DNA of 33,251 nucleotides from a virus. The translations under genes were made by a program, and so were the position numbers. Below are positions 558 through 31,649 of the stretch, piece by piece. Position 1 is the stretch's first letter. Each line of letters opens with the position of its first letter. Location of the stretch: IMG/VR virus record IMGVR_UViG_3300047322_000313, positions 1 to 33,251 of that record; one strand, given 5' to 3'. The notes under the pieces were generated by a model that saw only the letters and a list, made by a program, of their open reading frames with translations, was not told where the DNA came from and ran no database searches.

Positions 558-590
558 ATTCAACAAACAGTTGAATAGCTCAGCTATAGT
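558..590 (+). promoter_or_regulatory. Operator-promoter A (palindrome plus -10 box)
   Basis: The palindrome ATTCAAC-AAACA-GTTGAAT spans 558-576 with perfect 7-bp arms. Eight bases later is TATAGT (585-590), a fair -10 hexamer preceded by GC. The same palindrome, 8-bp gap and GC-TATNNT box occur at 1889-1920 and 11793-11824. The palindrome overlaps where a -35 element would lie, so a protein bound there would be expected to block or replace sigma contact. It drives the gene at 634. Confidence 0.75.
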
Positions 591-602
591 TTCAGTACGT
601 CA

Positions 603-626
603 ACACCAACCACGCACTAAGGGAGT
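603..626 (+). promoter_or_regulatory. Conserved 5' leader A with Shine-Dalgarno
   Basis: This stretch begins ACACCAACCACGC and ends in GGGAGTT just before the start codon at 634. It is nearly identical to the leaders at 1927-1951 and 11831-11855, though the genes that follow differ. Conservation beyond the GGAG ribosome site suggests a recently duplicated control module or a leader with its own role. Confidence 0.65.
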
Positions 627-633
627 TTTAACC

Positions 634-969
634 ATGATCGGCATCGACCAGCGCACCCTAGATCAAGAGGACGTAGCCGTCTTGTTCTATGCGATGTGCC
701 TCTATGGCAACGCGAACGAGGAAACAACAGACACTTCGCTGGTGTGCAAAGGCTTCGCGGAAATGATGAACCGCGCCAGCTTAGCGGCGGGCATGATCGC
801 CCACCTGCACGCAGACGAGGGCGATGATTGGGACGGCGTTGTGTGGTTCGAACGCTTCGAAGATCAGAGCGCCGATTCGCTGGCGGGCATGCTGTTCATG
901 CTCGAAGAAGGCACGGATGGCGACGTGGAATCCGTAGTTACCCAATGGCTCGCAGATCGGGGGCTTTGA
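634..969 (+). CDS. Small acidic protein of unknown function
   Basis: A 111-residue protein starting MIGIDQRTLDQ. The ATG at 634 is chosen because GGGAG (621-625) precedes it and because promoter A lies directly upstream; the open frame extends to 532, but that would run back through the promoter. The product is rich in Asp and Glu (segments such as HADEGDDWDGVVWFERFED) and has no membrane segment. I recognise no family. It is first in a run of five small genes ending at the terminator at 1830. Acidic small proteins of phages are often inhibitors or DNA mimics, but nothing here shows that. Confidence 0.75.
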   Translation: MIGIDQRTLDQEDVAVLFYAMCLYGNANEETTDTSLVCKGFAEMMNRASLAAGMIAHLHADEGDDWDGVVWFERFEDQSADSLAGMLFMLEEGTDGDVESVVTQWLADRGL

Positions 970-970
970 C

Positions 971-1066
971 ATGAACGCCACCATAGCCGACGTCCCTACC
1001 CTGCTGAATCTGGTCGGCGCTGCTGTCGCCGTCTTTACCGCCGCCTATTTTGCTTGGAGCAAATGA
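971..1066 (+). CDS. 31-residue single-pass membrane peptide
   Basis: This tiny gene starts one base after the preceding stop and ends in a TGA that overlaps a possible ATG of the next gene, the tight packing expected of a real gene in this operon. The peptide is MNATIADVPTLLN followed by a hydrophobic stretch (LVGAAVAVFTAAYFAW, about residues 14-29) and a final Ser-Lys. It would span the inner membrane once. No function is recognisable. Confidence 0.6.
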   Translation: MNATIADVPTLLNLVGAAVAVFTAAYFAWSK

Positions 1067-1068
1067 CC

Positions 1069-1422
1069 ATGATTCTCTACGACAAAAAGGGCTCGTGGGT
1101 GACTGTGCCCTATCGCGCCGAACTGTTAAGCATCCCATTCGAAGGCGGTGCGGTTTTCAACCCACTGCGCACGCTGGATAACTCGGCGTTCTGCACACCC
1201 GAGCGCTACGGCTTTGAGGTCGTCAACACGGGCGGCGGTTGCATGGGCTGGCGGCTGGACTTGCCCGATGGCGGGTATCTGCTGATTACCGACGAGGGCG
1301 GGAGCGGCTTGCCGGAAGAAGACGACGACGGTAGCCCGCTGATTGGTCGCTACACCGTCGAAGGTGACTGTCTGGCGCTGTCCGACGACTTCCGCGAACT
1401 GCCCGCGAATGGGAGCGTGTGA
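1069..1422 (+). CDS. Unknown protein, about 117 aa
   Basis: The product begins MILYDKKGSWVTV and ends in a Gly-, Asp- and Glu-rich half containing LPEEDDDGSP. I chose ATG 1069 because the GGAG at 1056-1059 is 9 bases upstream; ATG 1063, which overlaps the previous stop, is possible but lies only 3 bases from that GGAG. No transmembrane segment and no recognised domain. It lies in the small-gene operon under promoter A. Confidence 0.7.
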   Translation: MILYDKKGSWVTVPYRAELLSIPFEGGAVFNPLRTLDNSAFCTPERYGFEVVNTGGGCMGWRLDLPDGGYLLITDEGGSGLPEEDDDGSPLIGRYTVEGDCLALSDDFRELPANGSV

Positions 1423-1423
1423 C

Positions 1424-1669
1424 ATGAGCCGCCGCACGCTTGAGGCGCAGAAGCATGCGCTGCATCAGCTGGCCGCCGCGTTGCTGGCCTGCGAAGCCGC
1501 CCACGTCACTGTCCGTTGCCATGACGACAAGGGGGCTGCCGCGTCGTTCGCTGTCTTCGCCCGCCCTCGCGCTGGCATCGTTGAGCGCCTTTACGACGGC
1601 AACGACCACGGCGGCCAAGACGTTTTGAACTACGCCGCTGTTGAACTCGCCCTAGACGCGTTGGAGTAG
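1424..1669 (+). CDS. Unknown protein, 81 aa
   Basis: Starts MSRRTLEAQKHALHQL, three bases after the preceding stop, with GGGAG at 1411-1415 as ribosome site. The N-terminal half is alanine- and leucine-rich and probably helical; the C-terminal part ends YAAVELALDALE. The open frame extends upstream to 1343, but the ribosome site and operon spacing favour 1424. No family recognised. Confidence 0.7.
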   Translation: MSRRTLEAQKHALHQLAAALLACEAAHVTVRCHDDKGAAASFAVFARPRAGIVERLYDGNDHGGQDVLNYAAVELALDALE

Positions 1670-1675
1670 CCAGCC

Positions 1676-1810
1676 ATGAAAACCCGCCGTCACGAATTCC
1701 CTAACGCGCATTGGGCTTTTGCCTTCGCGCTGTACGAATTTGCCCAAGGGCGGCGGGTATCTGTTGGCCGCGATCCTTTCCACCGCTGGCATGTTGAACT
1801 GTATTTCTGA
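1676..1810 (+). CDS. Unknown small basic and aromatic protein, 44 aa
   Basis: Last gene before the terminator at 1830. It starts MKTRRHEFPNAHWAF and ends HRWHVELYF. GGAG at 1663-1666 lies 9 bases before the ATG and overlaps the end of the preceding gene, so translation is probably coupled. The high content of His, Trp, Phe and Arg resembles small nucleic-acid-contacting or structural peptides, but no family is recognised. Confidence 0.6.
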   Translation: MKTRRHEFPNAHWAFAFALYEFAQGRRVSVGRDPFHRWHVELYF

Positions 1811-1829
1811 GCCACCCTGCCCCACCTTT

Positions 1830-1856
1830 GCCCGCGCCGATAACGTGGGCTTTTTT
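1830..1856 (+). terminator. Rho-independent terminator
   Basis: A 7-bp stem GCCCGCG/CGTGGGC (one G-T pair) with a 7-nt loop is followed by six T residues at 1851-1856. It closes the operon started by promoter A and separates it from promoter B. Confidence 0.85.
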
Positions 1857-1888
1857 ATGCGCTACCATTCGTCGCCCGACATCCTGCT

Positions 1889-1920
1889 TTCAACTGTCGG
1901 TTGAATAGTTAGGCTATGCT
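1889..1920 (+). promoter_or_regulatory. Operator-promoter B
   Basis: TTCAAC-TGTCG-GTTGAA at 1889-1905, followed by T, then an 8-bp gap counted from the end of GTTGAAT, then TATGCT (1915-1920) preceded by GGC. Geometry is the same as at sites A and E. It stands just after the terminator at 1830 and before the gene at 1958. Confidence 0.8.
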
Positions 1921-1926
1921 TTGTTT

Positions 1927-1951
1927 ACACCAACCACGCACCAACGGAGTT
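1927..1951 (+). promoter_or_regulatory. Conserved 5' leader B with Shine-Dalgarno
   Basis: Starts ACACCAACCACGCACC and carries CGGAGTTA as ribosome site. It matches leader E at nearly every base, including the upstream GTTT, and the match continues into the coding start (ATGAAAAC). Confidence 0.7.
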
Positions 1952-1957
1952 ACCGCC

Positions 1958-2578
1958 ATGAAAACCCAAGTACGCGAAACAGCAGCAGGCAAGTCTATCT
2001 CGGCTTACATCGTGCTCAATCCGAAAGGCAAGCACGTTGCAACCGTTAACGCCCATTTTGCCAACAGCGGCATGGTGACGGTTGACCTTTGGAACATCGG
2101 CGACCAAGCCGCCGAACGCTGCTTAGCCGCTGCTATCAAGTCGGGCGACGTGACAGAACAGACGCTCGAAAAAGCCCGCAGGGCAGCCGCCACACAGCGC
2201 GACTGGCTGGCCGCAGACGCTGACCTTTCCGGTTACATCGCCTTCGACCTTTTCGGCTTACAGCGAGGCAGCGCGGGCGGTGGCGGCTATGACAAGTTCA
2301 CCGCCGCGCTGTCGCGGATGTACATCGACGGGCACAAAATGTACGACCACTGCGGCCACTCAGCCGAGTCGGAAAAGTTGCTCGCTGCCTACGCAAAACA
2401 CTATGACACTCCAGAAGGCCACAAAGCCGTCCGCGCCCATTGGGACGCCAAAGCCGAGAAAATCGGCGCTTGCTTCGCCAACTACGACAGCGAAAAAGGG
2501 CGGTTTACCTCGTTGCACATCACCGCAGGCCTTCGCCGCCTAGAGTCGATGGGCTACACCGTTATTCAAGCCATCTAA
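1958..2578 (+). CDS. Unknown protein, 206 aa, first gene under promoter B
   Basis: Starts MKTQVRETAAGKSISAY at an ATG 7 bases after the GGAGT of leader B. The sequence is mixed alpha/beta in character, with a beta-rich N-terminus (YIVLNPKGKHVATVNAHF, about residues 17-34), a helical middle (residues 65-95) and a GGGGYDKF loop near residue 107. It is soluble and not cysteine-rich. I do not recognise the family. The first residues (MKTQVRE) resemble those of the gene at 11863 (MKTEVQE), which has the same promoter and leader, so the control module and N-terminus appear to have been duplicated together. Confidence 0.75.
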   Translation: MKTQVRETAAGKSISAYIVLNPKGKHVATVNAHFANSGMVTVDLWNIGDQAAERCLAAAIKSGDVTEQTLEKARRAAATQRDWLAADADLSGYIAFDLFGLQRGSAGGGGYDKFTAALSRMYIDGHKMYDHCGHSAESEKLLAAYAKHYDTPEGHKAVRAHWDAKAEKIGACFANYDSEKGRFTSLHITAGLRRLESMGYTVIQAI

Positions 2579-2603
2579 CCGTTCTTTTTCCGGAGTCGCG
2601 GCC

Positions 2604-3044
2604 ATGTCCTCTAACCTCAAGTTCCACCAGAAAAACGGGCTTACCGCCTACTCGTTCGCTTGCGGGAATATTCAGCGCGCCGCCTACGCCGTAGGTGACT
2701 ATGAGTTGCGCGTTGACTTATGGCACGAGGGCGCGTGTTACCACGTCCGCGCCCACGAGCACGGCGGTCGCGGTCGTCTGGTTTGGGATAGCTTCGGATC
2801 GCTCACGGAAGCCCGCAAATTCTGGGCGCAGACGGTGGCGCTGTATCACGGCGAGCGCATAGCCACTGTGAAGGCTGACAAGCGTTACGCCGTGGCTAGT
2901 GAATTCTGCGGTGAACGGGAGCCGTACTACGTTGCCCGCGACTGCGGCGGCTGGATCGGCAAGTCTGCGACGGTGCAAGGTGCGTGGTTGCTGGCTTACC
3001 GTGCCAAACAACAGCTGGCGGTAGCGTTGGGTGAATCAGCATGA
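2604..3044 (+). CDS. Unknown protein, 146 aa
   Basis: Begins MSSNLKFHQKNGLTAYSFACG with CCGGAG about 8 bases upstream of the ATG. The product alternates short beta-like stretches with charged loops (YELRVDLWHEGACYHVR) and ends in an alanine-rich helix. The stop overlaps the ATG of the next gene (ATGA at 3041), so the two are coupled. No family recognised; it belongs to the promoter B operon. Confidence 0.75.
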   Translation: MSSNLKFHQKNGLTAYSFACGNIQRAAYAVGDYELRVDLWHEGACYHVRAHEHGGRGRLVWDSFGSLTEARKFWAQTVALYHGERIATVKADKRYAVASEFCGEREPYYVARDCGGWIGKSATVQGAWLLAYRAKQQLAVALGESA

Positions 3045-3214
3045 AAAACGCCAAGGACTACAACCGCGCCCGCGCTGGTATCGCTGCCGTGGTGCTAGCC
3101 CGTCTCGGGTGCTCGGGCTTCTTGCTGTATTACCTTTTCAAGGCTGACTTTATGGGGGTTGGCGTATGCATTGGCTTGTTCTGGATTGTCGGGTGGCTTC
3201 TGCCCGAGACCTAG
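3041..3214 (+). CDS. 57-residue membrane protein with two hydrophobic segments
   Basis: Starts at the ATGA overlap with the preceding gene. Two hydrophobic stretches lie at about residues 13-32 (including VVLARLGCSGFLLYYLF) and 37-54 (MGVGVCIGLFWIVGWLL), with a basic N-terminus (MKNAKDYNRARA). This fits a two-pass inner-membrane protein. The terminator at 3229 follows at once. It could be an exclusion or holin-like peptide, but there is no direct sign of either. Confidence 0.6.
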   Translation: MKNAKDYNRARAGIAAVVLARLGCSGFLLYYLFKADFMGVGVCIGLFWIVGWLLPET

Positions 3215-3228
3215 AACAGTGAAACGAC

Positions 3229-3251
3229 AGCCCGCCTAGAGCGGGCTTTTT
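3229..3251 (+). terminator. Rho-independent terminator
   Basis: Perfect 7-bp stem AGCCCGC/GCGGGCT with the 5-nt loop CTAGA, followed by a run of T to 3251. It ends the promoter B operon. Confidence 0.9.
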
Positions 3252-3272
3252 CAATTGCGTGAGGGTTAGACC

Positions 3273-3533
3273 ATGATTCAGCGGACAGAGGGGAAAACGG
3301 TTGTACAGCGGCTGGCTAACGCCATGTTCGACCTCGGGCAAGCCAGCCAGCGCTACCAGCTGCATCGGCTTGAGTGCCAAGACGCGGGCGGACATCTGCC
3401 CGAGACGGTGGCCGTCTGCACGGCTTACATTGAGGCGCTGCGGCTCGCTGGGGCGGCGTCGGTTGAGTACGCCCACCAGCTGGAGATTGAGTTTCTGGCG
3501 TCGGGCATCGCGGTTGCGTCACGCTTGAACTGA
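3273..3533 (+). CDS. Unknown helical protein, 86 aa
   Basis: Starts MIQRTEGKTVVQRL with GAGG at 3259-3262 upstream. It is predicted to be mostly helical, with alanine-rich segments (residues 45-80), and has no membrane span. It lies alone between two terminators and has no obvious promoter of its own, so it may depend on read-through of the terminator at 3229. No family recognised. Confidence 0.65.
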   Translation: MIQRTEGKTVVQRLANAMFDLGQASQRYQLHRLECQDAGGHLPETVAVCTAYIEALRLAGAASVEYAHQLEIEFLASGIAVASRLN

Positions 3534-3551
3534 TCCACACCAGCCAACGCC

Positions 3552-3576
3552 GCCCGCCTCGTGCGGGCTTTCTTTT
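3552..3576 (+). terminator. Rho-independent terminator
   Basis: Stem GCCCGC/GCGGGC (3552-3557 and 3563-3568) with loop CTCGT, followed by TTTCTTTT. It ends transcription of the gene at 3273. Confidence 0.85.
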
Positions 3577-3582
3577 GCCCGT

Positions 3583-3608
3583 AAAAAAGCCCGCCAATAT
3601 GCGCGGGC
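3583..3608 (-). terminator. Minus-strand rho-independent terminator
   Basis: Read leftward: stem GCCCGC (3608-3603), 8-nt loop, GCGGGC (3594-3589), then six T (A residues 3588-3583 on the plus strand). With the hairpin at 3552 it makes a back-to-back pair. No minus-strand gene is visible to its right before 4197, so it may stop antisense transcription or a non-coding transcript. Confidence 0.7.
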
Positions 3609-4115
3609 AAGGTTTACACCAATGGGCCAACAGCGGGCTATCCGTGCCCGTGGCCAGACCAACATAACAGCCCCTCAGAACGCGCCACAAGCGGGTTTTG
3701 CGTTAGCCCGTGGGCTGACCCTCATTCGCCGGTTGCCGTGCTGCGGCACGCATCACAGCGCGCATAACCTGCCAATCCGAGCGGCTGGCCAGCCCGCCGA
3801 GGCAGCCCGCGCCCGCCCAGAATCCGCGTTTTTGAGCCCCCAGCAGCCCGCGCATGAGCCCCATTCAGCACCAGGACCCGGGCGAGCGGTTGCCCCAGGT
3901 AGCCCGCGTATTAGGTGGTGTTACCCCTGGAACCCTCGCGATCCCATCGCGACCCGATTCCCGGGCGTTACCCCTGGCGGCCGCTCGATCCCCCTGCGCC
4001 GGAATTCCGAAGGAAAACAATCGCCTCGAGACTGTTACCCCAGGAGACCGCTTGACCCGTCAAGAATCGGGCGAAACGACCGTCTGTCGGCTCGAAAAAA
4101 TTCTCTACTTTTCGT
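3609..4115. other. Non-coding spacer, very GC-rich, with repeats
   Basis: About 500 bases without a credible gene; the open frame 3622-4137 has a low-complexity Pro/Arg/Ala translation and no ribosome site. GTTTACACCAA at 3612-3622 repeats part of the leaders at 1927 and 11831 but without their palindrome or -10 box, so it looks like a remnant. AGCCCG occurs repeatedly (near 3790, 3801, 3845 and 3901). There is a short hairpin CGTGC-TGCG-GCACG at 3737-3750, two TCGCGA palindromes at 3936 and 3947, and a repeat set at 3889-4044. It may be a regulatory or replication region. Confidence 0.55.
3889..4044 (+). repeat. Four iteron-like repeats GTTACCCCWGG
   Basis: Copies: GTTGCCCCAGG (3889-3899), GTTACCCCTGG (3920-3930), GTTACCCCTGG (3967-3977) and GTTACCCCAGG (4034-4044). 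All have the same orientation. Start-to-start spacings are 31, 47 and 67 bp. The block ends about 80 bp before operator C and the rdgC-like gene. This could be a binding array for a replication initiator or a regulator. Confidence 0.55.
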
Positions 4116-4145
4116 TTGCTATTCAACAATTAGTTGAACTACGAT
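4116..4145 (+). promoter_or_regulatory. Operator-promoter C before rdgC-like gene
   Basis: The palindrome ATTCAAC-AATTA-GTTGAAC spans 4121-4139. It is flanked by TTGCTA (4116-4121) and TACGAT (4140-4145), a weak -35/-10 pair spaced by 18 bp, which would place the palindrome in the promoter spacer, a usual repressor site. The -10 geometry seen at A, B and E (8-bp gap) is not kept here, and the ACACCAACC leader is absent, so this is a different promoter type sharing the same operator. Confidence 0.65.
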
Positions 4146-4196
4146 TCAGCCGTGAAACAGAGTTGTATCAGCCGCGACACTACTCAGGGCAGACCA

Positions 4197-5300
4197 ATGG
4201 GCCTCAAACTTTTCAAAGACGTCTTGGCGTACCGCCTTACGCAGCCGGTCGAACTCTTCGACCATGATCACCGGGAGGCGCTCAACGACGAGCTATCGCG
4301 CCAGCCTTCACGTCAGCCAGGCAGCCAGGAACTGGAGACTTTCGGTTTCGTCGAACCGGCCGGGGAAGAAAAGCGATTCGTCGAGGATCTGAACGACGAC
4401 GCCATGCTGATCAGCGCGCAGATATGGAAACGTGATCTGCCAGCATCAGTAGTCACCCGTGAGTTGAATTTAATTGTGTCGAAAATTGAACGAGACGAAG
4501 AGCGCAAGGTCTACTCGAAGGAAAAGCGCCAGCTCAAGGATGACATCATTTTGAAATTGCTTCCGAGAGCCTTCATCAAGGGCAAGCGCGTTTCGGCGAT
4601 TATCAAAGACGGTCTCGTCTACATTGATACATCTAGCGCCAAGCTTGCTGAACAGATGCTGTCGCTGCTGCGAAATTCCCTCGGCAGCCTGCCGGTCCGG
4701 CCGGTCACCGTCCGTATTAACCCCGTCGTTTCCATGACCCGCTTTCTACAACAGGCTTCTGTCGACGACAGCGGCGACTTCCTCCTGGGTGAAAACTTTC
4801 ACCTTCGGGGCGCCACCGTTGAAGCCAGCACGCTGAGCGGCAAGGACGTCGACCTCACCGACGATGACATCCGCGACCTTCTGGTCACCGGCCGGCAGGT
4901 CACCCAGCTGGGGCTCTCCTTCGTAGACACGGCGCTCGGCGAAATATTTCCGTTCACCCTTACCGAAGACCTGACCCTCAAAGGGATCCAGTGGCCCGAC
5001 GTCCTGCTTGATCAAGCGCAAGCCGACGTCGGTGAGGACGCCGCCCCGATCACCACCTTCCGCGCAACCATGTTTCTGCTGGCTGATAGCCTCGGGCGCC
5101 TGTTCAGCGCGCTGATCGATGCGCTGGGCGGTGAGGACCGCGGCGCCGAAACGACCGCCGCCTTTGAGAAGCGGATGGAAAAGGCAACCGCTGCCGCCAC
5201 CAAGCATATGACCGGTTTCAAACTCGGCGACACCAACCTGGTGACCGACTTTCCTGCGACCGAAACCCCAGCCGATGAAGACCAGGACGACCTGATATGA
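4197..5300 (+). CDS. rdgC: RdgC-like recombination-associated protein
   Basis: RdgC is a ring-forming DNA-binding protein that limits RecA loading and other recombination functions; phages carry homologues. The 367-residue product has the family's marks in order: an N-terminal LFKDVLAYRL strand (4-13), GSQELETFGFVEP (42-54), LPASVV (81-86), LKDDIILKLLPRAF (113-126) and LLRNSLGSLPVRPV (157-170). It is longer than the roughly 300-residue bacterial protein. I chose ATG 4197, where the family homology begins (MGLKLFKD); the frame reaches back to a TTG at 4134 inside the operator. It heads an operon running to 8971 and overlaps the next gene by ATGA. Being first behind operator C, it should be under the phage's general control. 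Confidence 0.9.
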   Translation: MGLKLFKDVLAYRLTQPVELFDHDHREALNDELSRQPSRQPGSQELETFGFVEPAGEEKRFVEDLNDDAMLISAQIWKRDLPASVVTRELNLIVSKIERDEERKVYSKEKRQLKDDIILKLLPRAFIKGKRVSAIIKDGLVYIDTSSAKLAEQMLSLLRNSLGSLPVRPVTVRINPVVSMTRFLQQASVDDSGDFLLGENFHLRGATVEASTLSGKDVDLTDDDIRDLLVTGRQVTQLGLSFVDTALGEIFPFTLTEDLTLKGIQWPDVLLDQAQADVGEDAAPITTFRATMFLLADSLGRLFSALIDALGGEDRGAETTAAFEKRMEKATAAATKHMTGFKLGDTNLVTDFPATETPADEDQDDLI

Positions 5301-5731
5301 ACCCGATCATGGACCCATTGAAGGAACAAGTCGGCGGTAACCACTACGCCAAACTACCGATCCAGCCCGTCCAGTTCGCGATGGCGAACAGCTGGGACGC
5401 CTGCGCCTTCAGCATCCTGAAATACGTCACCCGGCACGCCGATAAGAACGGTTTGCAGGACATCAAAAAGGCTATCCACTTCGTCGAGCTGAGGGTCGCA
5501 ACCCTTGACGGCGGCGGGGACTACGCAACCTACGACAAGCCGATCCCGATGATCGACTACCTGAAGGCCAACCGTATCGGCATTGCCGAAGCCGGTGCGC
5601 TGAAGGCGCTCGAGGTCTGGGTCTACGCCCGTACAGATCGAGCCAAACGTGAACTGCTTTGTGCTTTGGACTGGCTGGCTACGCGGTATCAGCCGGCCAC
5701 CGTCGAACTCAATCCAACCGCAGCAAGCTGA
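5297..5731 (+). CDS. DUF3310 protein (T7 gp1.7-type nucleotide kinase family)
   Basis: The first 60 residues carry the DUF3310 signature: VGGNHYAKLPIQPVQFAMAN (about 12-31), then a Cys-Ala-Phe helix, ILKYVTRHADKNGLQDIKKAIHFVEL (residues 39-64). T7 gp1.7, a member of this family, is a nucleotide kinase without a Walker motif; that activity is not shown for this protein. The tail after residue 65 (to 144) is specific to this version, with a helical segment rich in Ala and Arg. It overlaps the rdgC-like gene by ATGA and precedes a MazG-like enzyme, so the pair may adjust nucleotide pools during phage growth. Confidence 0.8.
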   Translation: MNPIMDPLKEQVGGNHYAKLPIQPVQFAMANSWDACAFSILKYVTRHADKNGLQDIKKAIHFVELRVATLDGGGDYATYDKPIPMIDYLKANRIGIAEAGALKALEVWVYARTDRAKRELLCALDWLATRYQPATVELNPTAAS

Positions 5732-5765
5732 GCCCATCCTGGGCCGGCATAAAGGAGAAGTACCA

Positions 5766-6245
5766 ATGGATCTCGTACAAGCACGCGACACGCTGGAAAC
5801 CATCTTGCTGGAGGCCAAAATCGGCCCGGAACTCGTCGCCCTCGGTGCGGTGGGGGGTAGTTACCACGGCCTCCAGTGCGCTCAGCAGCTGTCCCACCAG
5901 TTGGCGGCCAAGTCGGGCTGGTGGCTGGACACGGAAACCGGCGAGGACGTCCGCACCTGGCCGAAGAAGTTCTTCCTGCTGTGGGTCTCGACGAAGTTGG
6001 CGCTGGTGCATAGCGAAGTGTCGGAAGGCCTCGAGGGCTGGCGCAAAGGCAAGATGGACGATCACCTGCCGCACCGGTCGATGCTCGAAGTCGAGCTGGC
6101 CGACGCGGTGATCCGGATTCTGGATCTGGCAGGCGGCATGAACCTCGATGTCGCGGGCGCTGTGATCGAGAAGCTGGCCTACAACCAGAAGCGCCCAGAC
6201 CACAAGCTGGAAAACCGGGTGAAGGACGGCGGCAAAGCCGTCTAA
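5766..6245 (+). CDS. MazG-like nucleoside triphosphate pyrophosphohydrolase
   Basis: All-alpha NTP pyrophosphatases of this group hydrolyse (d)NTPs to the monophosphate. The 159-residue product has the expected metal-binding pattern: HSEVSEGLEGWRKG (about 81-94) supplying the ExxE motif, and LEVELADAVIRILDLAG (about 107-123) supplying ExxD, followed by AVIEKLAYNQKRPDHK typical of phage members. The ATG follows AAAGGAG with ideal spacing; the open frame reaches back to 5649 inside the previous gene and is not needed. Substrate cannot be told from sequence. It may trim host or unusual nucleotides, or lower ppGpp, as proposed for other MazG proteins. Confidence 0.85.
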   Translation: MDLVQARDTLETILLEAKIGPELVALGAVGGSYHGLQCAQQLSHQLAAKSGWWLDTETGEDVRTWPKKFFLLWVSTKLALVHSEVSEGLEGWRKGKMDDHLPHRSMLEVELADAVIRILDLAGGMNLDVAGAVIEKLAYNQKRPDHKLENRVKDGGKAV

Positions 6246-6290
6246 CCAATCGTCCAGGGTGCTCGGGCACCCAGCAAAGGAGTATCCACC

Positions 6291-6584
6291 ATGCGCCTTT
6301 ACCTGTTCTGGCTGTTCATCCTGGACACGCTCGCTTTCCTGATTCCGCACTACGAAACAACCGACGTCGCCCTCGACCTGTACCAGGACCGTGTGTACGT
6401 CGGTGAAGAGCTGGGTCACCTCATTAACTACGACATCATTTGCCCTGTCGGCATCCTCGAGCCCGAGGAACAGTACGACGCGGTCGGTACCATCCGGTAC
6501 TTCACCTGGCTCGGCTTCGCTACCTTCATTCGTCAGATCGGCGCTATCCGCCCGTTCGAGAATCCATATCAAGAGGAACAATAA
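6291..6584 (+). CDS. Unknown membrane-associated protein, 97 aa
   Basis: Starts MRLYLFWLFILDTLAFLI, a strongly hydrophobic N-terminus (residues 2-19) that could be a signal anchor, then an acidic region (VYVGEELGHLINYDIICPV) and a second, weaker hydrophobic stretch (YFTWLGFATFI, about 69-79). AAGGAG lies 8 bases before the ATG. Possibly a bitopic inner-membrane protein. No family recognised. Confidence 0.7.
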   Translation: MRLYLFWLFILDTLAFLIPHYETTDVALDLYQDRVYVGEELGHLINYDIICPVGILEPEEQYDAVGTIRYFTWLGFATFIRQIGAIRPFENPYQEEQ

Positions 6585-6586
6585 AA

Positions 6587-7030
6587 ATGCGTACTTACCT
6601 CATTAATGGCTGCTTCACCTTCGAATCTTCCAGCAGCCAATTGATGTCCGGTCAGGTCACCCTCGACGAGGGTCTGGTGATGGACTTCGCGACCTTGCAG
6701 ATGGTCGAAGCCAACACCCTGGCCACCGCACAAGAGCAAGCGACCGATTACAACGAAGTCCCACCGAAGGCCTTCCGCATCACCAGCTTCCAGGCGTTCG
6801 AAGTCCCGGGTGCAGCGGATCCCAGCCAAGCGCCCGCCATGCCGGCCGAACTCAACGCGGCGGATGTCCTGCCGCCTGAAGAGTGCCCGATCCTGATCGA
6901 ACTGCCAGGAGGCAGCCTGATCTGCGCCGAGCGCACCCGTCACATCGAGAAGCGTTCCGACGCTATGGAATACCGGATCGCGGGTAGCGAAGTGCTGATC
7001 ACCGGCCGGCTGCGGTGGGCATACCCATGA
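6587..7030 (+). CDS. Unknown protein, 147 aa
   Basis: Starts MRTYLINGCFTFESSSSQ two bases after the preceding stop, with AAGAGGAA as ribosome site. The N-terminal half is beta-like; residues 75-100 are Pro- and Ala-rich (PGAADPSQAPAMPAELNAAD) and look like a flexible linker; the C-terminal third is again beta-like. Stop overlaps the next ATG. No domain recognised. Confidence 0.7.
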   Translation: MRTYLINGCFTFESSSSQLMSGQVTLDEGLVMDFATLQMVEANTLATAQEQATDYNEVPPKAFRITSFQAFEVPGAADPSQAPAMPAELNAADVLPPEECPILIELPGGSLICAERTRHIEKRSDAMEYRIAGSEVLITGRLRWAYP

Positions 7031-7221
7031 AACAGACGTGGGGCTGCACAGTGGACGCCCTCGGGTACACGCTAGAGCTTCACGTCGAGGACGGGAGAAG
7101 ACGGGCTCGATTCCACGAGCCCCTGGGACAGATCGGCGCGCTCAGCGCCGACACCCGCCGCTCGATGTTTGAGTGGGCGGTACAACACCTGAAGTATCAG
7201 GCACTGAGGTATCTAGCATGA
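7027..7221 (+). CDS. Unknown protein, 64 aa
   Basis: Starts MKQTWGCTVDALGYTLELHVEDG at an ATGA overlap and ends in a helix (SMFEWAVQHLKYQALRYLA), whose stop again overlaps the next ATG. A small beta-hairpin plus helix protein, basic in the middle. Not recognised. Confidence 0.7.
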   Translation: MKQTWGCTVDALGYTLELHVEDGRRRARFHEPLGQIGALSADTRRSMFEWAVQHLKYQALRYLA

Positions 7222-7727
7222 TGGCAATCGAGGCTTACTTCATCACGCTGGGCGGTGTCGCTTCCGTCTTTGTATTGGGAGCAGCCGCCCTCACGTTCCA
7301 CGAAACACGCAAGCGCCGGACCCGGGTCTCGGAAGTCGTCGTGACGTTCCAGGGCGAGCAACTGGCCGATCACGTTCTGGCCGCACGGTTCGCCGTCGAC
7401 CAGGCTACCAAGTCCCTGCGGCCCGAAGCGCTGAAGGGCATGCAGACTCGGCTGCGCAGCGTGCCCAAGCCACCAGCCCGTGGCGCGAACTACCGGGAAG
7501 GCTGGGCCTGCCCTGATCAAGAAGACCGCGCTGGCGTCAGCTGGGGCGTCCACGAGCGCCGTTGGCTGGGCAACCGCTTCGAAGAAGGTGCGACCCGGGC
7601 TGAACTGGCCAAAGAACACGGCCGCACGGAGAACGCCATCGTCGCCCAGCTCTGCTACATGAGCCTGCTCGAGCAGGATCGGCAGCGTCAGGCCCGCGTG
7701 GTCAGCACCGGGAGTATCTGGCCATGA
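7218..7727 (+). CDS. Membrane-anchored protein with C-terminal helix-turn-helix
   Basis: The 169-residue product has a single hydrophobic span at about residues 6-27 (AYFITLGGVASVFVLGAAAL) followed by a basic RKRRTR stop-transfer segment. The C-terminal part (about 113-146) reads WGVHERRWLGNRFEEGAT then RAELAKEHGRTENAIVAQL, the pattern of small HTH domains common in phage proteins. A DNA-binding domain tethered to the inner membrane is one reading; the HTH may alternatively be a protein-interaction module. Starts at ATG 7218, overlapping the previous stop, with a second ATG directly after it. Confidence 0.7.
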   Translation: MMAIEAYFITLGGVASVFVLGAAALTFHETRKRRTRVSEVVVTFQGEQLADHVLAARFAVDQATKSLRPEALKGMQTRLRSVPKPPARGANYREGWACPDQEDRAGVSWGVHERRWLGNRFEEGATRAELAKEHGRTENAIVAQLCYMSLLEQDRQRQARVVSTGSIWP

Positions 7728-8032
7728 GCGAAACCGACCGTAAACGCCATTTCGCGATACTCGGCGCGGAACGTAAGCGCACACCTTGGGACACTGTTCT
7801 GGTCGAGGCCAGCCAGGCTATCGAGAAACGCCAACGCCGCGCCGGTCTGCAACCTCCGCTGCCGAAGCCGCGGGTCCGCGTGTTCCAGTACAACAAGGGC
7901 ATGGCCCTCTACGTTATCCGGTTGGGCAACGTCTGCATCACGGCAGAGACCTGGACGGCGTTGATCAAAAAAGCCGCCTGGGGGCCTTGGCGCACCGTTC
8001 GCAGGACCTGGGTCGACGGTCGCTGGCTATGA
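7724..8032 (+). CDS. Unknown basic protein, 102 aa
   Basis: Starts MSETDRKRHFAILGAERKR at an ATGA overlap. Highly basic, with a Pro-rich bend (LQPPLPKPRVRV, about 45-56), then a beta-like core (LYVIRLGNVCITAETW) and a Trp/Arg-rich end. Charge suggests nucleic-acid contact but no known fold is recognised. Confidence 0.7.
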   Translation: MSETDRKRHFAILGAERKRTPWDTVLVEASQAIEKRQRRAGLQPPLPKPRVRVFQYNKGMALYVIRLGNVCITAETWTALIKKAAWGPWRTVRRTWVDGRWL

Positions 8033-8223
8033 ACTGCCCACGGCCACGGGTGAACCGCTGCGGGGAGCTGGAATGCCATGCCTGTGGGTTGACCTGGGCT
8101 GTGGACGATCCCGCCCCGGACTGCGAGCAGCAGAGCCGCCAGAGCACGAAGCGACAGCGGGTTGCCGCCACCGCGATCCGTGAACTGGTGAAGATCAGAG
8201 ACATACTGAGGAAAGAACCATGA
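8029..8223 (+). CDS. Small cysteine-rich, possibly zinc-binding protein, 64 aa
   Basis: Starts MNCPRPRVNRCGELECHACG. Cysteines at 3, 11, 16, 19 and 32 include a C-x2-C pair followed by LTW, the usual form of a zinc knuckle. The C-terminal half is a basic helix (VAATAIRELVKIRDILRK). ATGA overlaps at both ends. Confidence 0.7.
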   Translation: MNCPRPRVNRCGELECHACGLTWAVDDPAPDCEQQSRQSTKRQRVAATAIRELVKIRDILRKEP

Positions 8224-8423
8224 GCAGGATCATCAAAAAGCGTAGACGCGAAATCCGCGATCAGGTGCGCGCAATCGTCATCCGAAAACTACAGCAGATC
8301 AATCTGGCTGGCTTCGCAGAGGGCGCCGACGAAACGGAGACCGGTTACGCAGAAGATTACCTGCGCAGCCTTATCGCCGTCCTCGAAAGCCAGACGACAC
8401 TTACCCCGAGGGTCGAGCAATGA
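8220..8423 (+). CDS. Unknown small helical protein, 67 aa
   Basis: Starts MSRIIKKRRREIRDQVRAIVIRK: a long basic helix followed by an acidic linker (EGADETETGY) and a second helix (YLRSLIAVLES). Could bind nucleic acid through the N-terminal helix. Coupled to both neighbours by ATGA overlaps. Not recognised. Confidence 0.7.
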   Translation: MSRIIKKRRREIRDQVRAIVIRKLQQINLAGFAEGADETETGYAEDYLRSLIAVLESQTTLTPRVEQ

Positions 8424-8971
8424 AAGAGATCCTTTGGGGCTTCCTCGCCCGCCTGCTGGCCAAGCCGGCAGTTACCCGGTGGTTGATAAAAAGGGCGGTA
8501 CGCACGCCGTACCTGCACCTGACCAGCCCAGACGGCAACGACCTGTACATGGCCCGCTTCTGGCTGTTCAACCCCTACGACCGCGTCACCCACGAGCCGA
8601 AGTACGCCTGGTGCCCGTGGTCTATCCGGCTTCACCACATCCACCGGGAAGATCAGGACCGGCATCCGCATAACCATCCGTGGGACGCCCGCACGATCAT
8701 CCTGCGGGGCTGGTACCACGAGCAGCGGATCCTCGGGTTCTTCCATCCGTACCGCGCTCGTCTCCAGGGCGACACCGCCCCACTCAAGTTCGGCGAGTAC
8801 CACCGGATCACCGAGGTGGCACCCGAAGGCGCAGTGACCCTGTTCATCAGCGGCCCGTACCAGGGAACGTGGGGTTTCCTTGTCGACGGCGTCAAAGTCC
8901 ACTGGAAAAAGTACCTGGGGCTCGCTGAAGATGAAGACTTGCAGCCCGTCAACCTCGAATTACAGGGTTAA
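8420..8971 (+). CDS. Cupin-like metal-binding protein, 183 aa
   Basis: After an N-terminal helical segment that is basic (about residues 1-28), the sequence has the look of a double-stranded beta-helix: RLHHIHREDQDRHPHNHPWD (about 70-89) contains a cluster of five His, and ARTIILRGWYHEQR, GEYHRITEVAP and WGFLVDG follow as strands. His clusters of this type bind iron or zinc in cupin dioxygenases and isomerases, but no substrate can be inferred. Such proteins are seen in many phages without a known role. Last gene of the operon starting at 4197; the operator at 8993 follows. Confidence 0.6.
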   Translation: MKEILWGFLARLLAKPAVTRWLIKRAVRTPYLHLTSPDGNDLYMARFWLFNPYDRVTHEPKYAWCPWSIRLHHIHREDQDRHPHNHPWDARTIILRGWYHEQRILGFFHPYRARLQGDTAPLKFGEYHRITEVAPEGAVTLFISGPYQGTWGFLVDGVKVHWKKYLGLAEDEDLQPVNLELQG

Positions 8972-8992
8972 CCGTTCGTCGTGCGAGCTGGC

Positions 8993-9035
8993 ATTCAACC
9001 AATAGTTGAATAATACTCGTCCTACATGGTAGAAC
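8993..9035 (+). promoter_or_regulatory. Operator-promoter D
   Basis: ATTCAAC-CAATA-GTTGAAT at 8993-9011, perfect 7-bp arms. TTGAAT in the right arm (9006-9011) can serve as a -35, with TAGAAC (9030-9035) as -10 after 18 bp and a TG one base before it (extended -10). An alternative -10 is TAATAC at 9011. It lies between the cupin-like gene and the gene at 9059, whose AAGGAG is at 9045. Confidence 0.7.
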
Positions 9036-9058
9036 GTGTAGGACAAGGAGACCGGACC

Positions 9059-9394
9059 ATGCACAGAGCAGCATATTTCGCGCTGGGGGAAGAGGTGATA
9101 GTCGACTCCAAAAAATGCCCGGATATGAATGGGCCATCGATCATCACTAACCGGATGTTCATCGTTGGGCGCAAGGGGTCGAAGGACGGTTGGGTGTACC
9201 AGATGTTGAATGGCGGCGGCGGTCGATGGCTGATGGAATCGAGCCTCAGAAAGGACTGCCGCCCGTGCGGCGAAACCTTCCAACAATTGATGACTACGTT
9301 CATGAACTACGCGGCAGCCTGCGACCTACCGTTGTCGCTGAAAGCCCAGGAAATCATGGACGACATTATGCGGCGCAGACCAAGCAAAGGGTGA
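9059..9394 (+). CDS. Unknown protein, 111 aa
   Basis: First gene behind operator D. Starts MHRAAYFALGEEVIVDSK with AAGGAG nine bases upstream; the frame extends to 9026, but that start has no ribosome site. The N-terminal half is beta-like with a Gly-rich turn (MLNGGGGRWLM, about 49-59), the C-terminal half helical. No family recognised. Confidence 0.75.
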   Translation: MHRAAYFALGEEVIVDSKKCPDMNGPSIITNRMFIVGRKGSKDGWVYQMLNGGGGRWLMESSLRKDCRPCGETFQQLMTTFMNYAAACDLPLSLKAQEIMDDIMRRRPSKG

Positions 9395-9400
9395 TTACCG

Positions 9401-9745
9401 GTGAGTTTCAAGGATCTGGAAAAAACAATAAGTGACTGGATCGAAGCCCAGCAAGCTGACTTACGCAAGCGGGCGGAGGCCCGCGCACACAAGGCCCTGA
9501 AGAAGGCATTCAGGAGAGCCCAGAAAGAACGGCCGCCGATGTACAAGCCTGACCGGCCGCCGAACTACAGGAAGATCGTCGTACTCAATGTCCGCAGGGT
9601 TTCCGAGGGCATGCACGGCGAGTTGCTGGAACGGGAGTACCCCGTAGACACAGTTTCAGAGCAGATAGCAGAGTTCCAAGCCAAGGCCCTGGCGAAAGCA
9701 GAGGGGTTCATCTGGCGAGGCACAGTCGATATTCGCGAGGGATGA
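9401..9745 (+). CDS. Unknown basic protein, 114 aa, GTG start
   Basis: Starts at GTG 9401 (MSFKDLEKTISDWIEAQQADL), with AAGGGTG upstream. Residues 1-48 form a long, highly charged helix rich in Lys, Arg and Ala, probably a coiled coil; after a Pro-rich link (PPMYKPDRPPNYRK) a beta-rich domain follows. No known family. Confidence 0.7.
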   Translation: MSFKDLEKTISDWIEAQQADLRKRAEARAHKALKKAFRRAQKERPPMYKPDRPPNYRKIVVLNVRRVSEGMHGELLEREYPVDTVSEQIAEFQAKALAKAEGFIWRGTVDIREG

Positions 9746-9749
9746 CGTC

Positions 9750-9962
9750 ATGGCATTGCATAGCCCAAAGAACGATATTGTCAGCAGAGTGATCGCCTTT
9801 GCCAAGAGCTTGGGCTTCAGTGCTGAACGAACCAAAAGCGGTCATATCAAGTTCATCCGCCCGAACACGCCGTCCGTGTTCTTCAGCGGTACCCCCAGCG
9901 ATCACCGCGCCTACCAGAACGGGATAGCCAAACTCCGCAGAGTTGATCGAGGTGTGGCATGA
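9750..9962 (+). CDS. HicA-like small RNA-binding protein
   Basis: HicA toxins are small dsRBD-fold mRNA interferases with a conserved active His. The 70-residue product fits the size and pattern: KSLGFSAERTKSGHIKFIRP (about 14-33) places a His after Ser-Gly as in the family, and FFSGTPSDHRAYQNGIAKLRR (44-64) resembles the C-terminal segment of phage HicA-like proteins. No HicB-like antitoxin is adjacent: the next gene overlaps by ATGA but has no Arc/HicB features. It may be a solitary member with a lost or altered nuclease role, or a toxin kept quiet by the operator. Confidence 0.6.
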   Translation: MALHSPKNDIVSRVIAFAKSLGFSAERTKSGHIKFIRPNTPSVFFSGTPSDHRAYQNGIAKLRRVDRGVA

Positions 9963-10657
9963 GCGACAACACTTTCCAGATGCAAGTGCTCGAGCTGCAT
10001 CCCATGAATCAGGTGCCCTACCACGTTGGGTTCAGCATGGGCTTCCTGAACGTCAGCCTGGAGCAGGAGATCTACTGCTCGGCTACCGAGGTAGGCAAGT
10101 CCAATCTATGGAACCAGGGCTGGTCTGACGGTCGCACCCAGGCCGAGGCTCAGGCCCTCCAGGAAGCCGAGTTGTACGCCGCTCAGGATCAGGTCGAAGA
10201 GGCCAACGGAACCGCTGAGCAGCTGATGCAGGGTCTCGACGCCGGCTATAGCGCCAGCACGATCTACCACGTTGGCACCGACGAGACCGGCCGGGTCATC
10301 GCTCGAGGCACCCGATCAACCTCCGACGCCCACAAAGATTTTCACATCATGCACGCGGCACTGGAGTTCTCCCAAGCCTACGAGCTGCGCGGCGTGGCGT
10401 TCCCTGAGCGGCAGCTTGGCGGTCTGTTCATCCGGCCAGCAGTCGAGCAGCCCAAAGCCGAGAAGCCCACCACTTCCGCGGACCGGGTCGAAGTAGCCGC
10501 TGAGCCGCTGCGCCAGGTACTTACGGCGCTGACGGGGCCACCCCACCACATCCGCGAACTGCAAGCCACACGCAAACTCCCAGGTACTGAGAACCCGATA
10601 AATCAGCTGATTCTCGAGTTCAACGCCTGGTTCAACTCCGTAGGAGGCGCCGTATGA
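9959..10657 (+). CDS. Unknown protein, 232 aa
   Basis: Overlaps the HicA-like gene by ATGA. Residues 1-45 are beta-like; 55-95 form an acidic, Gln/Ala-rich helix (RTQAEAQALQEAELYAAQ); residues 155-180 are Pro/Glu/Lys-rich, likely a linker; the end is a short helix. Several phages carry such a mid-size protein in early operons; no function is known to me. A role as antitoxin for the preceding protein is possible only from position. Confidence 0.65.
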   Translation: MSDNTFQMQVLELHPMNQVPYHVGFSMGFLNVSLEQEIYCSATEVGKSNLWNQGWSDGRTQAEAQALQEAELYAAQDQVEEANGTAEQLMQGLDAGYSASTIYHVGTDETGRVIARGTRSTSDAHKDFHIMHAALEFSQAYELRGVAFPERQLGGLFIRPAVEQPKAEKPTTSADRVEVAAEPLRQVLTALTGPPHHIRELQATRKLPGTENPINQLILEFNAWFNSVGGAV

Positions 10658-10950
10658 ACGAGGTCCCTATCCAGATCCAGGACGCGAAGGCCCGCCTCGA
10701 GCAGGCGATGACCTTGCTGCAAGGCGCGACCGTCCCGAACCACGTCGGCGTGCCGATCATGGCTGCGCTGAAGGTGGCCAAAAACCGGATCCACCGCCTC
10801 GAATCGCTGCTCGAGGACAAGTACACGGTGCGTGACAGGTTCGCCATGAACATCGTTGCGCACCTGATGGTCACCCGGCTATACGAACCCAAGGAGGCTA
10901 TCCGGTTGGCTTACGAGCTGGCGGATGAAGCCGAGTCGGTGAGGATATGA
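10654..10950 (+). CDS. Unknown helical protein, 98 aa
   Basis: Starts MNEVPIQIQDAKARLEQAM at an ATGA overlap. Predicted nearly all-helical with heptad-like Leu/Ile/Val spacing (residues 9-20 and 40-56), so a coiled-coil or helical bundle is likely. Acidic C-terminus. Not recognised. Confidence 0.7.
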   Translation: MNEVPIQIQDAKARLEQAMTLLQGATVPNHVGVPIMAALKVAKNRIHRLESLLEDKYTVRDRFAMNIVAHLMVTRLYEPKEAIRLAYELADEAESVRI

Positions 10951-11228
10951 GCCGTGTATGTGACTGCACCCGCCAGTTCGCGGTACTGATGCGCGATACC
11001 TCTATCGGGGAAGGGACGACCCTCGAAGAGCCGAGAAAGGTGTGCGCGCCGGATGGCCAGTCCAAAGTGTGGGCCGTAGACCGTGATGCCTTCGAACAGG
11101 CCTACGCTCAGTACACCGGCCGGGATCTCCAGAACATCCGCGATCAACGGCTGGGCACCAGCTACGGTCAGCCAAAAATCTCGACGGCCTGGACGTGGTA
11201 CCAGATCGGTCAAGGAAATCCGGTGTAG
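10947..11228 (+). CDS. Unknown protein, 93 aa
   Basis: Starts MSRVCDCTRQFAVLMRD at an ATGA overlap. Cysteines at 5, 7 and 33 are too few for a clear zinc site. Central region polar, end rich in Trp and Gln (STAWTWYQIGQG). Not recognised. Confidence 0.65.
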   Translation: MSRVCDCTRQFAVLMRDTSIGEGTTLEEPRKVCAPDGQSKVWAVDRDAFEQAYAQYTGRDLQNIRDQRLGTSYGQPKISTAWTWYQIGQGNPV

Positions 11229-11230
11229 CC

Positions 11231-11554
11231 ATGACTGGGCACCGGCCGCTGCATCAGTACACGCCGGAATCCCTCGCTCGAGTTCGCGAACTCCGGGCTG
11301 AAGGGCTGTCGTGGAAGCAGATCGCCGCCGAGCTGGGTGGTACTGGTGAGAACTGGCGGTCCGCGGTCAAACGGGAAGACGCCAACGAGGGCCTACCCCT
11401 CCCCTACCGACGAGGTCGGGCAACACGGTTGAACAAAGAATCGAAGTCGGTCTGCCCGTACCACGCGCTGACCGGTGATCGGTCCTGGTGGCTAGCCGGC
11501 TGGAACGATGCAGACCTAGAACTTGAGGAACGGAAAATTGGGCGAACTGGCTGA
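11231..11554 (+). CDS. Helix-turn-helix protein with ribosome modulation factor-like segment
   Basis: Two parts. Residues 9-46 (TPESLARVRELRAEGLS, then WKQIAAELGG and the recognition-like GENWRSAVKR) form a typical HTH. Residues about 75-94 read CPYHALTGDRSWWLAGWNDA, which closely follows the core of ribosome modulation factor (CPY-x-L...RS-x-WL-x-GW-x-x-A). RMF binds the 30S subunit and drives 70S dimerisation in stationary phase. Together they suggest a DNA-binding protein with an RMF-type module that might act on host ribosomes or only use the fold for contact. ATG 11231 chosen: it lies just after the preceding stop at 11228. Confidence 0.7.
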   Translation: MTGHRPLHQYTPESLARVRELRAEGLSWKQIAAELGGTGENWRSAVKREDANEGLPLPYRRGRATRLNKESKSVCPYHALTGDRSWWLAGWNDADLELEERKIGRTG

Positions 11555-11756
11555 TGAAGCGGTAGACCGGGCGCTGGACCAGATGGATCGGTTCTTCAAC
11601 AGCAACCCGGAAGAACGGCGCCGGATGCGCCAGCAGAAGAAACAGCAGCGGATCCGCGAGGCGGGTCTGCACGAGGACCGGCAGATCCGGGCGATCATCG
11701 CCAAGAAGGAATACTGTCTAGACCAATTACCTGACCTGGACGATGACGAGGACTGA
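11538..11756 (+). CDS. Small highly charged protein, TTG start
   Basis: The frame is open from a TTG at 11523, but TTG 11538 has GAGGAACGG directly upstream at suitable distance, so I prefer it; the product is then 72 aa and the gene overlaps the previous one by 17 bases. Residues 15-60 are dominated by Arg, Gln and Glu (NPEERRRMRQQKKQQR), a probable charged helix, and the end is acidic (LPDLDDDED). No family recognised. It ends the operon started at operator D. Confidence 0.55.
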   Translation: MGELADEAVDRALDQMDRFFNSNPEERRRMRQQKKQQRIREAGLHEDRQIRAIIAKKEYCLDQLPDLDDDED

Positions 11757-11792
11757 GCCAAACGCCCGCCGCTCGTCACCTAACCTTACGTG

Positions 11793-11824
11793 TTCAACTA
11801 TCAGTTGAATTGTTATGCTATTCT
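11793..11824 (+). promoter_or_regulatory. Operator-promoter E
   Basis: TTCAAC-TATCA-GTTGAA (11793-11809) then T, eight bases (11811-11818), then TATTCT (11819-11824) preceded by GC. Same geometry as A and B. It lies in a 106-base gap between the gene ending at 11756 and the one starting at 11863. Confidence 0.8.
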
Positions 11825-11830
11825 CCGTTT

Positions 11831-11855
11831 ACACCAACCACGCGCCAAACGGAGT
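11831..11855 (+). promoter_or_regulatory. Conserved 5' leader E with Shine-Dalgarno
   Basis: ACACCAACCACGCGCC followed by AAACGGAGTTA: nearly identical to leader B, and the match extends back to GTTT and forward to ATGAAAAC. Similar to leader A. Confidence 0.7.
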
Positions 11856-11862
11856 TACCGCT

Positions 11863-12255: not shown

Positions 12256-12269
12256 TTCTGCAAAGTTAC

Positions 12270-12413
12270 GAAGTTGTGAATTCATAAAGCTATGACGTAA
12301 TAACTTCGTAATGCTCCGAGGTTAAAACTTCTTGAGGTTATAGCTTCTCGGGGGCATAGTGTTTTGGGGTTTTAACTTTAAAACTCTTTAGCTTTACGAG
12401 GTTATGACATGAA
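12270..12413. repeat. Centromere-like array: nine degenerate 16-bp tandem units
   Basis: Cut into 16-base steps, this AT-rich stretch falls into register. Units start at 12270, 12286, 12302, 12318, 12334, 12350, 12366, 12382 and 12398; the clearest are GAGGTTAAAACTTCTT, GAGGTTATAGCTTCTC, GGGGTTTTAACTTTAA and GAGGTTATGACATGAA. Consensus GAGGTTATRRCTTYWC; positions 9 and 10 are purines in every unit and position 8 is T in all but one. A weaker unit may precede at 12254. The last unit supplies the GAGG ribosome site and start codon of the RHH gene. Such arrays are binding sites (centromere and operator) for ribbon-helix-helix partition proteins. TTGAGG (12332) and CATAGT (12355), 17 bp apart, form a possible promoter inside the array. 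Confidence 0.75.
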
Positions 12414-12669
12414 GCCTTCAAAGGACGTAACAGACCTGGCCGCGACTCTGAGGGCCGCAGCCAGTACACCGTTGGTACCTCCCGCAACGACCAAGCCCGA
12501 CAAAAAATCCGCAGAAGACGGGGGCACGATGCAGATGACCCTGCGTCCGAGCCGCAGTCTGTACGCCCTCTACGTCAATAAAGCAGCCGAGCGCAGTAAG
12601 CAGGACGGGCGCAGCGTGTCCGTTCAGGAAGTCATGCTCGAGGTGCTGGCTGAAGGGGCGAAGGCATGA
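12409..12669 (+). CDS. Ribbon-helix-helix centromere-binding partition protein (ParB/ParG type)
   Basis: The 86-residue product has a flexible N-terminal tail (1-40) rich in Ala, Pro and Lys, then an RHH-like core: strand MQMTLRP (41-47), helix A SRSLYALYVNKAAERSK (48-64), turn DGRS, helix B VQEVMLEVLAEGAKA (72-86). Size, tail and position just before a ParA gene match small centromere-binding proteins of type Ib partition systems, whose tails stimulate the ATPase. It should bind the 16-bp array upstream and so also repress its own promoter. Gene order (binding protein before ATPase) is the reverse of parFG. The stop overlaps the parA start by ATGA. Confidence 0.8.
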   Translation: MKPSKDVTDLAATLRAAASTPLVPPATTKPDKKSAEDGGTMQMTLRPSRSLYALYVNKAAERSKQDGRSVSVQEVMLEVLAEGAKA

Positions 12670-13274
12670 GCAATCTGATCTTTATCGCGGGCCAGAAGGG
12701 CGGCACCACGAAAACGACCACCGCGCACCTGATGTGCCTGGGCGCTATTCTCCGGCGCCAGCCGGCTGCTTACGTGCTGACAGACCCCCACCGGAGCCTG
12801 AAGTCCGAAGGGCGGCCCTACGGCGTCATAGACGGGCGAGAAGCGGCTGACCTGGCGAGGATCATAACGGCGAGCGGTGACACCAAAAATGGCTGGCTGA
12901 TCGTGGACGGGGGTGGTAACCGCCCTGACTTGGACCGGGCTATCGCGGAGCAAGCGCTGCTGACTATCCTGCCGTTCCGTGATTCTGAAGAGGATCTGGA
13001 AATGATCTCTCGCGACCTTTCCGCGCTACCGAACTCCGTGGCATTGCCCTCTGCATGGCCGACGAACAAACGTGCGCAGGTGGCCGCTCAACGATTTATA
13101 GAGGCGTTGGAGCAGGTGTACCCTGGGCGGATCATCAGTACGCCGATCTATTTCGTGCATTCGACCCTGGAGCTTCTGGGCAAGCGGCTGGACAGCCCCT
13201 CGACGCCCGTGCGTAACGCCGCCCGCCGTGCGTTTTCTATCCTCACCGATCTTTCTAAAAGGGTTGAGCAATGA
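12666..13274 (+). CDS. parA: ParA-type partition ATPase
   Basis: ParA ATPases bind DNA non-specifically when bound to ATP and move or position plasmids by interacting with a centromere-bound partner. The 202-residue protein has the deviant Walker A GQKGGTTKTTTA (9-20; signature Lys 11 and catalytic Lys 16), the switch LTDPHRS (38-44), and a Walker B-like WLIVDGGG (77-84). Its size fits the short ParF/type Ib class with no N-terminal DNA-binding domain, and its partner is a small RHH protein. A phage copy fits either stable upkeep of an extrachromosomal prophage or positioning of phage DNA. Starts at the ATGA overlap. Confidence 0.9.
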   Translation: MSNLIFIAGQKGGTTKTTTAHLMCLGAILRRQPAAYVLTDPHRSLKSEGRPYGVIDGREAADLARIITASGDTKNGWLIVDGGGNRPDLDRAIAEQALLTILPFRDSEEDLEMISRDLSALPNSVALPSAWPTNKRAQVAAQRFIEALEQVYPGRIISTPIYFVHSTLELLGKRLDSPSTPVRNAARRAFSILTDLSKRVEQ

Positions 13275-31627: not shown

Positions 31628-31649
31628 GATTTCACCTCTTCGTTGAGTC

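Follow-up and report, generated by a model that had tools for sequence, protein, structure and literature searches.

Silencing from operators dispersed over the genome is known from few systems, mostly from phages of Gram-positive hosts (L5, phiC31 and SPbeta). In the Streptomyces phage phiC31, the repressor sites have the form of inverted repeats. In mycobacteriophage L5 and the other cluster A phages, one repressor serves 20-30 sites, located at promoters or in the gaps of transcribed operons (PMC6550527, PMC9283540), and counts of 18-30 dispersed repressor sites are given for phiC31 and L5 (PMC4557955). In the Bacillus prophage SPbeta, the sequence element SPBRE was found first and the protein, MrpR, later (PMC10516654).

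The palindrome described here, TTCAAC-N5-GTTGAA, belongs to a family of Gram-negative phages with many sequenced members, the Casjensviridae, and on the evidence below is in all likelihood the operator of the phage's own immunity repressor, CI, in a dispersed-operator, stoperator-like immunity system. It resembles the L5/cluster A system in the dispersal of sites among promoters and operon gaps, and in a motif that shifts with the repressor lineage. The L5 sites, however, are asymmetric, directional and bound by a monomer, whereas the casjensvirus sites are palindromic, fit a CI dimer and form tandem pairs 19 bp apart. No homology with the cluster A system was established, and since the sites are palindromes, not asymmetric elements in one orientation that bind a monomer, this is by definition not a cluster A stoperator system. 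Like phiC31, the casjensviruses are siphophages with many dispersed repressor sites, but phiC31 has three repressor isoforms, a host from a different phylum and a different repressor. The SPBRE repeats likewise lie in intergenic promoter regions under one master repressor; unlike CI, MrpR is a recombinase-fold protein, and its 15-bp motif is different (PMC10516654). The lambda, P22 c2 and 186 CI systems share the N-terminal XRE helix-turn-helix (HTH; P22 c2-like), the operator in the cI promoter and the Cro-like partner, but lambda and P22 are silenced from two clustered operator regions, whereas in the casjensviruses the sites are scattered over the genome, as far as the late genes. The intergenic repeat of T1 and Stevie is also stoperator-like and found in Gram-negative siphophages, but it is asymmetric, occurs in lytic phages and has no known repressor (PMC4319613). 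Literature searches found no earlier account of these operators in the Casjensviridae.

The window and the probable other half of its genome

The window, i.e. the whole stretch of 33,251 nucleotides that was analyzed, represents roughly one half of the genome of a Casjensviridae siphophage. Its tail proteins match tails of the Casjensviridae type, including those of AchV4 and others, and its left arm carries RdgC, DUF3310 and pyrophosphatase genes; homologous tail, head and replication genes appear in the order of the family, with homologues in classified members. No near DNA match to the window was found among phage records. A near-complete relative of 58.8 kb (G001), found via RdgC, shares about 86-95% DNA identity over long aligned parts. 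When aligned to G001, another record, G008 (25.4 kb), extends from 7 bp before the right end of the window to 12 bp inside its left end, and both show the same identity, roughly 95%, to G001. Judging from these ends, G008 is very probably the missing half of the window's genome.

The 12-bp overlap between G008 and the window may mark a cos end; the annotation of BcepNazgul gives a cos overhang of 12 bases. At about 79-143, close to the left end (probably the cos end), units of the form GAGTC..GAAAAATCC..GATTC are repeated, in G001 as well, and are possible terminase-binding repeats. The left end of G001 also carries tandem 92-bp repeats (L005 255-481).

Number and placement of the palindrome in the window

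The first-pass annotation had described five strong copies, with perfect 6-bp arms and a 5-bp spacer, as confined to intergenic gaps. Both statements were borne out: five perfect copies were found, versus 0.01 expected from dinucleotide shuffles, and all five are intergenic in a mostly coding window, of which only 10% is intergenic (binomial P about 1e-5). With up to one mismatch the window contains 7 copies (0.07 expected from such shuffles), and with up to two, 14 (0.74 expected). Intergenic copies far outnumber coding ones, the one-mismatch copy at 10619 being located within coding sequence.

The perfect copies, which are assigned to no strand, are TTCAACAAACAGTTGAA (559-575), TTCAACTGTCGGTTGAA (1889-1905), TTCAACAATTAGTTGAA (4122-4138), TTCAACCAATAGTTGAA (8994-9010, identical in G001) and TTCAACTATCAGTTGAA (11793-11809). 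G001 carries a perfect copy at the place equivalent to the first (503), where the surrounding DNA has diverged, and a counterpart of the second at 1426. The third is 61 bp upstream of the start of rdgC (4200-5300, + strand; PF04381, E=4.5e-66; phrog_724), a predicted target that encodes an RdgC-like recombination-associated exonuclease. The claim that each copy lies at or next to a plausible -10 holds for three of the five. The copies at 559, 1889 and 11793 have a common register, beginning 26 bp upstream of a -10-like hexamer: TATAGT (585-590, + strand; same register in G001), TATGCT (at 1915) and TATTCT (at 11819), respectively. For the copies at 4122 and 8994, assignment of a -10 is less certain. 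An arrangement of operator and promoter common to all sites was ruled out, as -10-like hexamers were found at several offsets. A long DNA pattern comprising operator and -10, scanned over viral contigs, gave no match because the flanks diverge.

In three operons, a near-identical leader (ACACCAACCACGCACCAA..GGAGTT) was observed 3' of the operator (about 609-633, 1928-1957 and 11831-11862), and G001 has its own version upstream of two operons. The protein encoded at 1958-2575 had no relatives among viral contigs.

The weaker copies noted earlier in gaps of the tail operon proved to be real, and are organized as tandem pairs with a spacing of exactly 19 bp. The first pair (21033-21049 and 21052-21068, two mismatches each, no strand) lies upstream of a tail-assembly gene, and its 21033 member is kept in G001. 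The second pair comprises a site with two mismatches at 31631-31647 (CTCAACGAAGAGGTGAA on the - strand), which overlaps the Shine-Dalgarno sequence of the major tail protein (MTP) gene, and a one-mismatch partner at 31650-31666 (no strand). The MTP gene itself (30857-31627, - strand; phrog_807, E=1.5e-60) is situated within the late operon.

Distribution and conserved positions among relatives

Scanning of relatives for the motif, as had been proposed, revealed dispersed copies in every larger clade genome that carries this CI, and the counts exceeded those of shuffled sequences in every genome of the TT clade. With up to one mismatch, 9-18 copies were detected in G001, YMC16, AchV4, G014, G011 and G012. 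The partial records G008 and G009 have 6-7 such copies; about 0.1 would be expected in either case. In a motif-free palindrome search, the motif ranked first or close to first in the window, YMC16, AchV4, G014, G012 and RHph_X2_30. At the same threshold, 11 of the 14 sites in YMC16 and 11 of the 18 in AchV4 are wholly or mostly intergenic, in genomes that are 9.9% and 5.3% intergenic, respectively. The pattern is that of a dispersed operator, with many repressor-type sites over the genome, mostly between genes. A number of sites in AchV4, including a perfect one, are nevertheless inside coding sequence, which counts against the CI-operator explanation. Among phages that lack CI, one copy was found in Chi and three in Phobos; RcWhiteOak and V11, whose CIs are divergent, showed no convincing dispersed palindrome.

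Certain positions are conserved. All eight clade genomes have the operator in the CI promoter and also at the start of the MTP gene, which lies within the late operon; seven of the eight have it in the divergent region of the Cro-like/gp70 gene. At the MTP start, the right arm (GAGGTGAA) often serves as Shine-Dalgarno sequence as well. Four records (the window, G001, G014 and a Stutzerimonas stutzeri prophage) have an operator upstream of rdgC, the last three with a perfect copy at a distance of 49-61 bp. Of the 27 cases in which a strong site has a neighbour no more than 60 bp away, 14 show a spacing of exactly 19 bp; this is the commonest spacing, and it suggests cooperative binding.

A CI-type repressor in the probable missing half

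The first-pass annotation had stated that the binding protein is not encoded in the window. This was confirmed, and is explained by the record covering no more than a part of the genome. The CI gene was found in G008 and G001, following the replication helicase, in the half that the window lacks. In G001, a perfect palindrome (45369-45385) lies 42 bp upstream of a 221-aa gene with an XRE HTH; the G008 CI is 99% identical and has its own perfect site. The search that had been proposed, for a repressor-like HTH gene with the site in its own promoter, thus succeeded in the other genome half and in the relatives.

The protein matches HTH_3 above cut-off and belongs to phrog_2967. Its homologues are annotated as transcriptional regulators in YMC16/N133 (60% identity) and AchV4 (52%), and as a repressor in AH2 (40%). 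In an AlphaFold model the HTH domain is confident, and Foldseek matched it to P22 c2, including the operator complex (TM 0.83 on the target). The C-terminal domain gave no confident structural match by AlphaFold and Foldseek, and no Pfam match to the S24 peptidase domain was obtained. Because of the HTH and the operator in its own promoter, the system is grouped with CI-type repressors; by its N-terminal XRE HTH and the location of its operator, the protein is classified as a CI repressor of the lambda/P22-c2 type. In previous publications, AH2 gp70 was likened to 186 CI (PMC3483164) and the AchV4 protein to lambda CI; operators or palindromes go unmentioned in the latter report, in which stable lysogens of AchV4 were not obtained under laboratory conditions (PMC7996906), a point against the CI-operator explanation.

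Covariation of operator bases with the recognition helix

The CI segment VSHEAVRKWF is invariant in the TTCAAC phages of the clade. In SS2019XI, PS6 and AH2, Gln replaces His; the core CAAC-N5-GTTG is kept and the outer bases are AA, TA or AT, giving operator halves AACAAC, TACAAC and ATCAAC. A TTCAAC operator was ruled out in AH2, which has no such site at up to one mismatch versus five AACAAC-N5-GTTGTT copies at that threshold, a weak motif. The Pro variant of RHph_X2_30 is accompanied by the halves TTCAAC and GTCAAC. In the Rhodobacter phage RcCWillis, with TAETVRKW in its CI, the dispersed palindrome is TTTCAC-N7-GTGAAA (10 copies at up to one mismatch), which lies upstream of CI and MTP and includes one 19-bp pair. 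Gln28 of the 434 repressor reads the A of ACAA at this position, and the direction of the His/Gln change is therefore sensible. Drawn from few independent operator classes, the covariation is the best evidence at the sequence level that points to CI itself as the protein that binds the palindrome. Enrichment, linkage to CI and recognition-helix covariation together support the likeness to dispersed operators or stoperators of temperate phages that had been drawn from the window.

A prophage in Stutzerimonas stutzeri

The genome of S. stutzeri 28a22 contains a complete-looking casjensvirus prophage, with terminase, portal, capsid, tail, CI, Cro-like, primase, RdgC and integrase genes. In its approximately 59 kb, 15 sites with up to one mismatch were counted, versus 14 in the remaining ∼4.5 Mb of the 4.6-Mb genome, which is background density. 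The earlier prediction had named an equal density of the motif in the host as evidence against it; the prophage alone is dense. A host regulator as the binder was ruled out by the same background density.

Alternative explanations and the proposed circuit

A small Cro/YdaS-like HTH protein (HTH1), acting as a lytic timing regulator, might be the main binder in place of CI, as sites flank HTH1 in 7 of 8 clade genomes, and Phobos and PspYZU01 retain HTH1 together with about three sites, one of them at HTH1, in the case of Phobos without a CI match. HTH1 alone is nevertheless improbable: high site numbers occur only where CI is present, the flank bases track the CI recognition helix, and all eight clade genomes have a site in the CI promoter. 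Operators common to CI and HTH1 are more likely.

It is very unlikely that the palindromes are activator boxes, at which a phage protein bound at about -30 would replace the -35 element and turn on a regulon in a MotA-like geometry. Such boxes would suit 559, 1889 and 11793, where the centre of the palindrome precedes the expected start by about 30 bp and a good -35 cannot be seen, but other sites have a -10-like hexamer directly 3' or 5' of the palindrome, and those over a ribosome-binding site within the late operon fit poorly. RNA hairpins, hiding for example the ribosome-binding site of the MTP gene, have a negligible likelihood, for although a 6-bp stem with a 5-nt loop is possible and one copy overlaps a Shine-Dalgarno sequence, the stem is short and A+T-rich, the promoter-proximal copies are upstream of the expected transcript, and covariation with a DNA-binding helix would be left unexplained.

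If the palindromes are operators of CI, a CI dimer would occupy each WTTCAAC-N5-GTTGAAW site, with pairs of dimers on tandem sites 19 bp apart. In the lysogen, CI would close many early/left-arm promoters as well as its own. Within the late operon, CI bound at short gaps, e.g., on top of the MTP ribosome-binding site, could stop polymerase during elongation in the manner of a stoperator, and the position of the operator there is compatible with an elongation block. The small Cro-like HTH protein, encoded beside clustered sites, probably competes for the same operators and so favours lytic growth. There is perhaps an even chance that such immunity is family-wide in temperate Casjensviridae, with one dimeric CI silencing both the early promoters and the interior of the late operon, repressor and operator co-diversifying via the recognition helix, and lytic lineages such as Chi and Phobos arising by loss of CI and most sites.

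The family thus offers a candidate repressor and operator with natural variants that suggest a residue-to-base code. These variants would predict immunity groups, and the palindrome would provide a sequence signature for finding lysogens. The repressor-and-palindrome pair recurs in the family, including phages described as purely lytic; AchV4, lytic in behaviour, carries a seemingly intact silencing circuit, which is relevant to the choice of therapy phages. With the site at the tail gene, silencing by a CI-type repressor that acts as a roadblock can be put to the test.

Other features of the window

No tyrosine integrase or resolvase match was found in G001, while other clade members carry an integrase. 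At 12409-13274 of the window, a small gene precedes one for a ParA-like ATPase, and imperfect direct repeats of 14-17 nt lie upstream (12266-12407). Because of the ParA-like gene and repeats, and the lack of an integrase or resolvase match in G001, the phage of the window may persist as a plasmid prophage. Finally, the C-terminal part of the protein encoded at 11195-11554 matches ribosome modulation factor (PF04957) above cut-off.
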